Positions 54,208 through 58,646 of a stretch of 64,000 bases of DNA are shown piece after piece. Source of the DNA: Nitrospira sp. KM1. Its GTDB lineage: Bacteria; Nitrospirota; Nitrospiria; Nitrospirales; Nitrospiraceae. The position numbers were made by a program, and so were the translations under genes. The notes under the pieces are model-generated. The model did no database searches and was not told where the DNA came from. It saw only the letters and a list, made by a program, of their open reading frames with translations. The DNA is taken from the NCBI RefSeq assembly GCF_011405515.1, contig NZ_AP022671.1, positions 2,604,001-2,668,000 on the forward strand, read 5' to 3'. The number at the start of each line of letters is the position of its first letter. Position 1 is the first letter of the stretch.

Positions 54208-54235
54208 TTGACAGTATGTGACGATTTGCTAAGGT
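54208..54235 (+). promoter_or_regulatory. sigma-70-like promoter of the OmpA-like gene
   Basis: A perfect TTGACA (54208-54213), 16 bases, then TAAGGT (54230-54235). The gene start at 54277 is about 40 bases downstream, after AGAAGGA. Confidence 0.55.
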
Positions 54236-54276
54236 TGCTCAAAGCAACCCTTGTCCTAACAAGAAGGACTACTACT

Positions 54277-55809
54277 ATGATCCTGCGCTCAACCTTACAT
54301 GTTGTGGTTCTGTCCGTAATGGCATTGGCTTACGCAAACTGCCAGATGGCTTGGGCTGATGATCTCGACAGCATTCGATACGGAGAATCGGTCCTCACCT
54401 ATGCATCCGGATCGATTAGGCAATCGAGCCCTCAGGATGGCGTGGTCAACGTCATTACCGGAGACAATCAGACAACCGGAGACAGGATGCAGTTGGGGCA
54501 AGGTGACGTCTTGTATCTCAAATTAAGGAATCCGGGAGAGGCGTCAATAGGCGACCTTTACAGCATTTTCAAGCGAACGCGCAAGGTTTTCCATCCACAG
54601 ACGAACCGATATATGGGCTATCTCGTTAACCGTCTCGCCATCGTGCGTGTGACGCAGGTGGAAAAATCGCTGAGCACGGTTCAGGTCATCAGAGCCTATG
54701 CAGCGATCTCTCCAGGCGACCCGGTGGTGAAATTCACTCTCCCTGAAGAACATCCGGCTCCTGACAGAGTCCCGGCAAAGGATGTGACGGGCATGGTCGT
54801 CGAATTGCAGGCGAACATGGGCATGACCCTCGTTGCGCAACGCAATATCGTCTACATTGATAAAGGACGAGAGGACGGGGTCCGCCCAGGGGATCAAATG
54901 GAGGTCGTTCGCTCCGGCGGTAATCTGCCTTCGCGCGTAGTGGGCCAAATCAGCATTTTGGGGACAGAGGATCATACCGCGACGGCGCTCATCACCAAAT
55001 CCACCTCGCGGATCCTCAAGGGAGACCGTGTGCACCTCAAACTGCAAGGTGACGATATCGTACCGGTCTCGATGCCTTCTGAGGGATATGACTCGATTCC
55101 GTCGGTTTCCTCGGCCATGGCATCTTCTGGTGACAGGGCGGCTCATGCCAAAGGTACCGTACGGGAGACTCGTATTACACTTACCGGACTGACGAAGCAG
55201 TTGCGCTATGAATCTGGTGAGGCGACCATTCAACCGGATGGTCAAAGGGTGCTGGATCAGCTCGTGGAAAACGTGAAGGCCGCCCCGGGCGAACAAATGA
55301 TTCGAGTCGAAGGGCATGCCGATGACATGGAAATTGGTCCCGCTCTCAAATCGCGCTATCCGACCAATTGGGATCTGTCCAAAGCCCGCGCGACCGGGGT
55401 TCTGAGATATCTCGTTGACAAGGGGGGCATCGACTCGGCACGAATCTCTTCCATCGGGTTTGGTGACACAAAACCGGTTGTCAGCAATGCGACGGAGCAA
55501 GGCCGTCAGCGGAACCGTCGAGTCGATGTTGTGCTGTATACTCCTGAGACCGGTAAGGGAGATGCAGAACGGTCTTCTGCGGCGGGAGATTTAAGAGACG
55601 AAGTCCAATCGAGCCATCCGGCACCGGATATCAAAGGTCTTGCCGCGCCATCCCATCAACCGGTAGCCGAACCAGCCGTCGAGTCGAAGAGCTCTGCGAT
55701 TGATAGCGCCTCGATCGGATCGGATCAAATTCCAGGAGCCGGGCGAACGGTTGTCGAGCCTGCGGCTCCGGATCAGGTTTCAAATCAGCAGTCCCTCGTT
55801 CAGCCGTAG
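54277..55809 (+). CDS. OmpA-family peptidoglycan-binding envelope protein
   Basis: A 510-residue protein with a signal peptide (VVLSVMALAYANCQMAWA). Residues about 35-270 form an unassigned beta-rich region with internal similarity (GDVLYLKLRNPGEASIGDLYSIF and IVYIDKGREDGVRPGDQMEVV), like the flagellar/LysM-linked SAF-type modules. Residues about 310-430 are an OmpA domain: RYESGEATIQPDGQRVLDQL, then IRVEGHADD, NWDLSKARATGVLRYLV and GRQRNRRVDVVL, the peptidoglycan-binding signature. A Pro/Ser-rich tail follows. Promoter and ribosome site are clear. It probably links peptidoglycan to an envelope structure. Confidence 0.9.
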   Translation: MILRSTLHVVVLSVMALAYANCQMAWADDLDSIRYGESVLTYASGSIRQSSPQDGVVNVITGDNQTTGDRMQLGQGDVLYLKLRNPGEASIGDLYSIFKRTRKVFHPQTNRYMGYLVNRLAIVRVTQVEKSLSTVQVIRAYAAISPGDPVVKFTLPEEHPAPDRVPAKDVTGMVVELQANMGMTLVAQRNIVYIDKGREDGVRPGDQMEVVRSGGNLPSRVVGQISILGTEDHTATALITKSTSRILKGDRVHLKLQGDDIVPVSMPSEGYDSIPSVSSAMASSGDRAAHAKGTVRETRITLTGLTKQLRYESGEATIQPDGQRVLDQLVENVKAAPGEQMIRVEGHADDMEIGPALKSRYPTNWDLSKARATGVLRYLVDKGGIDSARISSIGFGDTKPVVSNATEQGRQRNRRVDVVLYTPETGKGDAERSSAAGDLRDEVQSSHPAPDIKGLAAPSHQPVAEPAVESKSSAIDSASIGSDQIPGAGRTVVEPAAPDQVSNQQSLVQP

Positions 55810-55910: not shown

Positions 55911-58214
55911 ATGAACGTCAACCTGCCTTCTCCGATTTCTCAAACCGATTCTCTGTATGCCGATGTCATCGTCCCTCGTCATATGGCGGGTCCCTTTACC
56001 TACAAGGTTCCGTCCCGGCTCGCGTCGAGCATCAAGGTCGGTCACCTCGTCGTCGTCCCATTTGGAAAATCGATTTTGCACGGAGCGGTAATCGAACTGG
56101 CTCGCACGTTTTCCGGTCCAGTTGAGCACTCGAGAGTCAGAGAAGTCCAGGGATTCGTCGGCGGATCGGCCAGTGCGGAGATTCCCTCACGACTGCTTCA
56201 TCTGGCAAGAGAGATATCCCACAATTATTGTGCGCCGTTGGGGCAATGCTTGCGGCTTGTCATGCCTCCGACCCATGCTTGGCCGCCTGATTCGGGACTG
56301 TTGAAACTGACTGAGAGCGGACGTGATGCTCTCAATGGGAACGGCACCCTGCCTCCTGACGAACGTATTCTCTTGAAGCGGCTTTTAAGGAAACGTGGGG
56401 GGATTAGACAGCTCACGTTGACGGGGAAAACCGGTTCAAGTGTCATGGCCACGATAGAAGGGCTGCTGTCGAAAGGTTGGATCGAGAGATCCAGAGTGCT
56501 GCCAGCTGGAGAAGACCGAGAGGACGGCCGAATCGATCGATGGACAATTGGCGGTGATGGCGGGCAGGAGACGAGAGCAGAATCGTTTCAATGGGAGCAG
56601 CGGATAAGCACTCTTCTGCTCGAGCGCCGAGCAGCCCGCATGGCGGTTCAGGCTTCCAGTCAGGATCGTATTGATGCTCTCGGACGCGCGGTAAGCATAG
56701 TTTTGGGCCAACAGCGGACCGTCATGGTCCTCGTTGGCGAGGCCAACCGAGCTGAAAGGTTGGCTGCGATGTTGTCCGCTGTCATCAAAGCGAAAGTCAA
56801 TTATTTCCACAGCGGGTTACGAGAGGAACAGAGGTGCGGCATTTGGGATGAGGTCAACAGGCAGAAGGTCCCGATTGTAGTAGGGACTCGGTCAGCGCTA
56901 TTTCTGCCGATGACTCAACTAGGTTTGATCTGGATTGAAGAGGACGAGGACGCGGCGTTCAAGGAACCTCAAGAGCCTCGCTACCATGCACGAGAAGTGG
57001 CCTGGATGAGGGCCAATAGCGATCAGGCGCTTCTCGTGCAAGCCTCGTTACACCTGTCTCTTGAGTCGGAGGCGCTCAGTCAAGGTGACGTGTATACTCA
57101 TCCGTCTTCTGTCGCCCGACTATCGTCCATAGAAGTTGTCGATCTACGCGCTCACCCCCGAAACAAAGCACTGAGCCCCCGGATGATCGCTGCGATCGAG
57201 GAGACGATCCATCGGCAGGAGGGCGTCGTATTATTTCTCAATCGTAAGGGGTATGCAGGCGCGCTGGTCTGCGGTGAGTGCGGTCAGGTTCCTCGTTGCG
57301 CGTCCTGCAGCGTGGCGCTGACCTACTATCGGCTAGCCGGACGACTCTCATGCTCATATTGCGGCGTGCGCATCCCCATTCCCGAAACCTGCGCGGCATG
57401 CGGCGGGTCGCGTCTGCAACCAATTGGCGAGGGAACCGAGCGGGTCGAAGATGAAATCAAAGGGCGATTCCCAGGAGCGCGGGTTGTTCGGGCAGACGGC
57501 GAAACCATGCGCAAGCCGGCCCACGCCAAGGCGACATGGAGCCGCATCTCCCGGCGTGAATGGGATGTCCTCATCGGCACGCAACTCATTCTCCGAGATT
57601 CCAGATTATCTGGCGCCGGTCTTGTCGGGATCGTTCAGGCAGACAGCAGCCTCAATCGTCCTGACTTTCGCGCGGCCGAACGCACGTACCATCAATTGCT
57701 GGATGCGATCGAATTAGTCGGCCGAGACGGAGGTGGTGTAGGCCGCGTCATCATTCAATCGTACCTCCCGCACCATCATGCCATACAGTCGATTGCGCGA
57801 TCCGACGGAGCGTTGTTCAAACTCGAAGAATTGTCCCATCGACAAGCGTTGATGTATCCGCCCGTCGTGCATCTGATCGCACTGCAAGTATCGGGATTGC
57901 ACGGCGCAACCGTTGTAAAGGCGGCACGCGAATGGGCGAGTCGACTTCAAGAGTTTCCTCAGCCACACGAAAGAGAAGAGGGACTGGTTCCTCGCGTTGC
58001 ATCAAAGACCGCTCATTCTTTCATGGTACTGGGGCCGGTGCCGTCACCCATCGCAACACTGAGAGGCCGAAGCCGATGGCAGATTCTGATCAAAACATCG
58101 GATCGAGATTACGGAGTGCAGGTCGTCCGACTCGCGACGGCCAAACTAGAGGAGGCGTATCCAGCCCGTATGGCGAAGTTTGACGTGGACGTCGATCCTG
58201 TCGAGACATGGTAA
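55911..58214 (+). CDS. priA: PriA-like replication restart protein lacking helicase motifs
   Basis: A 767-residue PriA. The N-terminal 3'-binding domain (YADVIVPRHMAGPFTYKVP), the segment VPIVVGTRSALFLP, all eight zinc cysteines (CGECG, CASC, CSYCG, CAACGG) and the C-terminal domain are present. Walker A (GSGKT in other PriAs) aligns with ASSQDRID. The DEEHD box is EEDED, the SAT motif is lost (QASLHLS), and QVAGRAGR is degenerate (around ELVGRDGGGVGR). So ATP hydrolysis and helicase activity are not expected, as in the actinobacterial PriA proteins. It probably still binds forks and loads the restart machinery. It starts about 100 bases after the OmpA-like gene. Confidence 0.92.
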   Translation: MNVNLPSPISQTDSLYADVIVPRHMAGPFTYKVPSRLASSIKVGHLVVVPFGKSILHGAVIELARTFSGPVEHSRVREVQGFVGGSASAEIPSRLLHLAREISHNYCAPLGQCLRLVMPPTHAWPPDSGLLKLTESGRDALNGNGTLPPDERILLKRLLRKRGGIRQLTLTGKTGSSVMATIEGLLSKGWIERSRVLPAGEDREDGRIDRWTIGGDGGQETRAESFQWEQRISTLLLERRAARMAVQASSQDRIDALGRAVSIVLGQQRTVMVLVGEANRAERLAAMLSAVIKAKVNYFHSGLREEQRCGIWDEVNRQKVPIVVGTRSALFLPMTQLGLIWIEEDEDAAFKEPQEPRYHAREVAWMRANSDQALLVQASLHLSLESEALSQGDVYTHPSSVARLSSIEVVDLRAHPRNKALSPRMIAAIEETIHRQEGVVLFLNRKGYAGALVCGECGQVPRCASCSVALTYYRLAGRLSCSYCGVRIPIPETCAACGGSRLQPIGEGTERVEDEIKGRFPGARVVRADGETMRKPAHAKATWSRISRREWDVLIGTQLILRDSRLSGAGLVGIVQADSSLNRPDFRAAERTYHQLLDAIELVGRDGGGVGRVIIQSYLPHHHAIQSIARSDGALFKLEELSHRQALMYPPVVHLIALQVSGLHGATVVKAAREWASRLQEFPQPHEREEGLVPRVASKTAHSFMVLGPVPSPIATLRGRSRWQILIKTSDRDYGVQVVRLATAKLEEAYPARMAKFDVDVDPVETW

Positions 58215-58646
58215 TCACCGCCTGTTACGGCGGCGCGGCGGAGTCGCTGGTGGGAGAACCTCCGCTGTCGTCACAGATGCCGATGGCGTCCCTGCTCGTT
58301 TGAATAGCCCGTAGGAAAATGCCAGCCAAAATACTGAGGAAAACAGCCCGATGAGTGCGGCCGAGAGAATGGTTCCCATTTGCTCATCGGACGGCTGTTG
58401 CGTCGCCGTCCGGACCTGTATCATCGTCACGACAGGCCAGGCGAAGCTTTCCGCGCCCAGGAAGAGAGTGGACCATGCCCATACCAAGCCGGCGGTAGTG
58501 CCCTTCCAGATCAGAAATGCCGTGACGGCCGTGAATAGCAAGATGGCCAATAGCAGCGGAAAGGCATCCCATGCCAGCCAGCCGCCCACTGTGACAACAA
58601 GGCTGCCCAGCAGCGCATTGCCAAGAGAACTCCACGATATAGTCAC
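58215..58646 (-). CDS. four-helix membrane protein
   Basis: A 143-residue inner-membrane protein with about four hydrophobic helices (ALLGSLVVTVGGWLAWDAF, LLLAILLFTAVTAFLIW, LVWAWSTLFLGAESFAWPVV, ALIGLFSSVFWLAFSYGLF) and a basic Pro-rich tail. No family was recognised. It starts at a GTG after GGGAG. Its stop directly abuts the convergent priA stop, with no intervening terminator seen. Confidence 0.8.
   Translation of the reverse strand: MTISWSSLGNALLGSLVVTVGGWLAWDAFPLLLAILLFTAVTAFLIWKGTTAGLVWAWSTLFLGAESFAWPVVTMIQVRTATQQPSDEQMGTILSAALIGLFSSVFWLAFSYGLFKRAGTPSASVTTAEVLPPATPPRRRNRR

Follow-up and report, generated by a model that had tools for sequence, protein, structure and literature searches.

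Loss of the helicase motifs from the replication restart protein PriA of Nitrospira sp. KM1, its order and a related family

By alignment, the Walker A, DExH, SAT and QxxGRxGR motifs of an active SF2 PriA helicase are all lost in the PriA protein of Nitrospira sp. KM1, and a corresponding loss is found throughout its order and in one family of the same class outside the order, here called f8. The most probable reading, which we hold with considerable confidence, is that this protein is the sole restart PriA of the cell, that it has been a pseudohelicase since the common ancestor of the order and f8, and that it serves as an ATP-independent platform for fork recognition and DnaB loading. The gene is located in a window of 64,000 nucleotides, which is the whole stretch of DNA that was analysed (contig NZ_AP022671.1, positions 2,604,001 to 2,668,000), and contains the following features:

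55911..58214, + strand: priA, encoding a putative helicase-dead PriA (pseudohelicase) of 767 aa; ORF, profile and motif evidence
55962..56267, + strand: 3'-DNA-binding domain (3'BD), residues 18-119; PF17764, 66.5 bits
56652..56675, + strand: former Walker A, residues 248-255; one residue deleted, R253 opposite K230
56883..56903, + strand: retained GTRSALF, residues 325-331; alignment
56937..56951, + strand: former Walker B/DEEHD box, residues 343-347, now EEDED; alignment
57042..57056, + strand: former motif III (SAT), residues 378-382, H381 replacing T358; alignment
57270..57401, + strand: zinc region with eight cysteines, residues 454-497; PF18319 spans part of the region
57576..57611, + strand: former motif V, residues 556-567, AKGxxFP lost; alignment
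57696..57728, + strand: former motif VI, residues 596-606, QxxGRxGR lost, L602 replacing R584; alignment
57861..58199, + strand: C-terminal domain (CTD), residues 651-763; PF18074, 50 bits

The motifs were read from an alignment of the window PriA with the Klebsiella and E. coli proteins, in E. coli numbering obtained by subtracting 15 from the number in the Klebsiella chain, which places K230 on the lysine of GKT. The Walker A sequence GITGSGKT was replaced by A-SSQDRI, with a deletion of one residue and R253 in the lysine column, the position of the gap being the aligner's choice, such that a different placement would move the residue opposite K230. SAT was changed to SLH, AKGHHFP in motif V to LRDSRLS with loss of the KG, and Q580, G583 and R584 in motif VI to D598, E601 and L602; the final G-R of motif VI was still aligned (G604 R605), and the N-R and G of motif IV were retained. 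A pattern search of the protein for [AG]x4GK[ST] and QxxGRxGR gave no match, and the sole match to DEx[HDN] was at residue 313, away from the Walker B position. The first-pass annotation had described Walker A, DEEHD, SAT and QxxGRxGR as changed and GTRSALF and the eight zinc cysteines as kept, and the alignment bears out both statements: it recovered neither a Walker A lysine nor a DExH box, and it placed the cysteines at C454, 457, 463, 466, 481, 484, 494 and 497. The residues that we take to form the SSB-tail and 3'BD pocket sites of E. coli PriA were placed by the alignment on other residues than expected.

The protein is a full-length PriA, with a score of 372.2 bits against TIGR00595 (cut-off 230.35) and matches above the Pfam cut-offs to PF17764, PF18319 and PF18074, which represent the 3'BD, the zinc ribbon and PriA_C. 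It scored 430 bits on the best PRK05580-type model versus at most 198 bits on models of the PRK14873 type, which we take to be actinobacterial in scope. Its best solved relatives were PriA structures, with chain 4nl4, presumably Klebsiella PriA, at the top. A profile search with TIGR00595 identified a single PriA in the genome, which consists of one contig of 4.5 Mb. The other matches, considered as candidates for a second intact PriA and rejected, scored only 19 to 57 bits and were located in frames of 1152, 852 and 676 aa. The first two were the second-best and best matches of the genome to the RecG model, by which ranks they are probably Mfd-like and RecG, respectively, and the 676-aa frame is presumably UvrB. 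Another PriA elsewhere in the genome, a possibility raised in the first-pass annotation, was thus not found, and priA is present in single copy.

PriA matches were obtained in 7/7 genomes in a search of the same genus and in 282 of the 295 genomes of a phylum-wide draw, and the motifs were read from 95 rows, including the window, the same-genus rows, 30 loci from the phylum draw and 60 stretches chosen from that draw. Every row from the order of the window with readable sites was degenerate, as were both f8 rows; canonical PriA was read in the rows of families f4 to f7, f9 and f10 of the class and in those of other classes. Six rows (L006, L007, L008, L031, L055 and L095) that were fragments, contained runs of N or were duplicates were not counted further, and the remaining set comprised 65 degenerate and 24 canonical rows. 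The one-residue deletion in the P-loop was present in all 65 degenerate rows and in 17/17 further degenerate rows. Among the 65, the lysine column contained R in 55, the R584 column L in 58 and the R587 column P in 45, and the eight zinc cysteines were intact in 70/70 degenerate rows that covered the zinc region. Another 20 stretches were read to fill genera, of which 17 were degenerate and 3 canonical, with the eight cysteines in all 20. The loss was not uniform, as the DExH box is retained in large part in 2 families: PriA of f40, inside the order (L209, L210), had DEEH with the P-loop deleted and motif VI lost, and f8 PriA had EEEQ or similar at this site with both the P-loop and motif VI lost.

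The profile count with TIGR00595 covered 156 genomes of the class with a completeness of 90% or more, 132 in the order and 24 outside it. PriA scored above the cut-off in 127 of the 132 order genomes, with 332 to 453 bits, and the scores of the degenerate proteins of the order and f8 together ranged from 245 to 453 bits. In the order, the matches began at model positions 11 to 78, beyond most of the P-loop, with the exception of one genome (G341, position 6), whose PriA (L208) was degenerate on motif reading. The five f8 genomes had scores of 245 to 448 bits, G266 being a fragment, and in 15 genomes of other families in the class the match started at model position 1 and scored 609 to 670 bits; PriA in G307 was a canonical fragment. 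No canonical-scoring copy was found in the order genomes among the matches listed, which are ordered by score down to 208 bits. We noted that PriA above the cut-off was missing in 5/132 genomes of the order (G111, G260, G322, G327 and G340), one of which is 99% complete, and in 3/24 outside it (G179, G242 and G306), so that PriA is perhaps dispensable in some members of the order or falls in assembly gaps. It was also noted that G260 had no DciA match either, and that the f8 genome G299 (95% complete, 2% contamination) contained 2 degenerate PriA genes, L219 and L220.

In a contig scan with 590 confirmed loci, the 5 loci whose record titles read Nitrospira, Nitrospirae or Nitrospirales (L096 to L099 and L107) were all degenerate and the other 75 among the best 80 contained GKT, as read by eye from the table, these 80 being a biased sample that included no Deinococcota or Actinobacteria. 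As judged from the motif readings and the profile count, the loss of the helicase motifs is a feature of the entire order and of f8, and no local oddity.

Two genes flank priA in the window:

54208-55809, + strand: gene upstream of priA, encoding a protein whose C-terminus looks OmpA-like by eye
58215..58646, - strand: small protein, probably membrane, 143 aa; next-door gene, convergent with priA

The convergent gene adjoined priA in 36/36 order loci with flanks and the OmpA-like gene was upstream in 32 of these; the former was not seen as a neighbor of priA in 7 loci with canonical PriA and 2 from f8, nor in the truncated neighborhood of f40. The first-pass annotation had offered a different restart route as one implication of the loss, but the distribution of the restart partners does not point to one. 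DciA, encoded at G000:C1:2513599-2513859 in the genome of the window, was present in 154/156 class genomes and hence does not track the loss of the motor, and RecG-model matches were found in 50/50 genomes, this genome included. DciA and RecG are common to genomes with canonical and degenerate PriA, and PriC was found in 0/25 genomes with either type, nor was it found in the genome of the window. The searches for DciA, RecG, PriC and UvrD thus identified no replacement restart factor gained alongside the loss.

The UvrD proteins differed between the 2 groups. A PcrA-like copy of more than 300 bits was present in 15/16 genomes with canonical PriA versus 0/34 with degenerate PriA, a contrast that represents one branch and was therefore given no statistics. 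The order and f8 were without the canonical PcrA-type UvrD, and a shorter or different UvrD-like copy remained (L179, G000:C1:4016247-4017050). The best UvrD match in the genome of the window was a protein of 691 aa with an intact Walker A and a score of 244 bits; on the PcrA model it scored 437 bits versus 869 for the copy in a canonical genome.

Degenerate PriA is under purifying selection: the dN/dS values across the protein were 0.13 to 0.24 in 17 close pairs, and in most of these were lowest near the zinc region and the second helicase lobe. The column entropies were calculated after the rows had been thinned to 40 degenerate and 22 canonical ones. The mean for the P-loop was 2.75 bits in the degenerate versus 0.03 bits in the canonical set, and the corresponding values were 0.48 and 0.44 for GTRSALF, 0.53 and 0.49 for motif IV and 0 in both sets for the zinc cysteines. 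Furthermore, 12 columns were conserved in both sets with different residues, including those with R instead of K at 253, H instead of T at 381 and L instead of R at 602, which indicates that parts of the former ATP cleft have been fixed anew and are not free to vary; the new residues conserved in the clade in this cleft were H381, A599, L602, P356 and E352.

An AlphaFold2 model of the window PriA, built on a 48-row alignment of this protein and the contig-scan loci, had a pLDDT of 87.5 and a pTM of 0.87. It matched E. coli PriA 6dcr with a Z score of 32.6 (rmsd 3.2, 621 residues), PriA bound to fork DNA in 6dgd with 31.0 (rmsd 3.4, 604 residues) and the PriA/PriB/fork complex 8fak with 29.9 (rmsd 2.7, 582 residues); the next family was Mfd, with a Z score of 20.6. 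The fold is thus predicted to be that of an intact PriA, in which strand 242-247 joins helix 250-266 through a turn of 2 residues.

The residues fixed across the clade in the former ATP cleft are what a new contact surface would look like, and PriA could on this ground have left restart for some other DNA-bound role, such as keeping SSB or recombination proteins in place at forks. We regard this as unlikely, given that all PriA domains and the predicted PriA fold have been retained in a genome with no other PriA, and that PriC was absent from all genomes searched for it.

The origin of the degenerate proteins was studied with 2 maximum-likelihood trees of chosen rows from which the motif columns had been removed. 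All degenerate PriA fell on one side of one branch, both in a tree of 49 rows (support 96/94) and in a tree of 48 rows that included f40, f3 and five f8 rows (99/95), and their motor was apparently lost once, in the common ancestor of the order and f8. In the latter tree, f8 branched off first, followed by f40 and then by f3, and, as the remnants of the DExH box in the earliest branches suggest, Walker B was lost later than the P-loop and motif VI. The f40 proteins L209 and L210 have the appearance of intermediates that preserve a trace of this order of decay. The suggestion in the first-pass annotation of an independent loss holds with respect to the other Nitrospirota lineages, whose canonical PriA surrounds the clade, the scope of the trees being sampled Nitrospirota rows.

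Acquisition from a lineage that was already helicase-less, in Deinococcota or Actinobacteria, would be compatible with the Walker A K-to-R change reported for Deinococcus-Thermus in the available text of PMC4504706, and PriA from these 2 phyla was absent from both trees. It is nevertheless quite improbable, since the early branching of f8 and f40 with much of the DExH box fits a stepwise decay in place, and since the window PriA scores far higher on PRK05580-type than on PRK14873-type models. That the protein still consumes ATP at a rebuilt, non-standard site, for which the new conserved residues at some of the former motif positions might be cited, is hardly credible with a P-loop that is shortened and relatively variable, with the lysine and motif VI R584 gone and with a turn of only 2 residues between the predicted strand and helix. 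A decaying pseudogene or an artefact of sequencing or assembly has nothing but the motif loss itself in its favor and is practically negligible, with the same degenerate score in 127/132 order genomes, one-contig genomes among them, full-length frames, dN/dS values of 0.13 to 0.24 and an invariant zinc site.

Pseudohelicase forms of PriA are already known as a kind, to which the Nitrospira order adds another lineage. Actinobacterial PriA probably lacks the helicase motifs. It resembles the window PriA in being a divergent ortholog, and differs from it in that the latter scores far higher on canonical-type than on PRK14873 models, the comparison being one of models alone. The first-pass annotation had named Actinobacteria as the precedent for loss of the PriA ATPase; the divergence is in print, in the description of these proteins as "smaller and very divergent" (PMC1193525, available text), but the closest proven precedent is PriA of D. 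radiodurans. This protein, with a natural K to R change in Walker A, showed no measurable ATPase activity and unwound DNA to a negligible degree, yet it binds fork DNA and DnaB, and Deinococcus-Thermus is named as a notable exception to the conservation of the PriA motifs in the same source (PMC4504706, available text). The 2 proteins are alike in the loss of Walker A and B, the replacement of the lysine by arginine and the retention of the DNA-binding parts, as far as the sequences tell. They differ in phylum, in the P-loop, which is one residue shorter in the Nitrospira order, and in motifs III, V and VI, which are altered throughout that order; moreover, the loss of activity was measured in D. 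radiodurans PriA, whereas for the window PriA we infer it. In E. coli, the K230R substitution abolishes the ATPase, but the strains are viable and primosomes assemble (PMC4504706, available text). The window PriA shares with the E. coli and Klebsiella proteins the domain order, the predicted fold (Z 30-33), the zinc cysteines, GTRS, the 3'BD and the CTD, but not the ATPase motifs, and PriC was missing from the 25 genomes tested. E. coli PriA holds all 3 fork arms, and the lagging strand threads a pore formed by the zinc region, the second lobe and the CTD (PMC10175261, available text). These pore-forming domains are retained in the window PriA. Among the matches listed in our literature searches, there was no report of PriA motif loss in Nitrospira or Nitrospirota. 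What is new is that the loss extends over the order and falls on a single branch, together with the deletion in the P-loop and the residues fixed afterwards.

For a PriA that remains in restart as a pseudohelicase, the analogy with E. coli K230R and D. radiodurans PriA points to a motorless loading platform, a role already proposed for the latter protein (PMC4504706). Such a protein would most likely recognize abandoned forks and D-loops through the 3'BD, the winged helix, the zinc region and the CTD, and reload DnaB without ATP, probably assisted by DciA. Judging from its motifs, it would not spend ATP on clearing the lagging strand. Where unwinding is required, it could be provided by another helicase, such as RecG or the remaining UvrD-like protein; alternatively, restart may be confined to forks in which the lagging template is already single-stranded. 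A more speculative and rather doubtful extension is that the former ATP cleft has been rebuilt and fixed (H381, A599, L602, P356) to dock DnaB or DciA, with restart that proceeds without an ATP-driven PriA and with fewer fork helicases, a reduction to which the missing canonical PcrA-type UvrD also points.

E. coli can live without the PriA motor, and yet the motor is retained in most bacteria, which raises the question of its benefit. An environmentally major order that includes nitrite- and ammonia-oxidizing Nitrospira has lost this motor, apparently once, while the rest of the protein has remained under selection. Since sister families in the same class have canonical PriA, restart in the presence and in the absence of the motor can be compared in nature, and the Nitrospira order provides a further lineage in which to seek how the lost PriA motor may be compensated.
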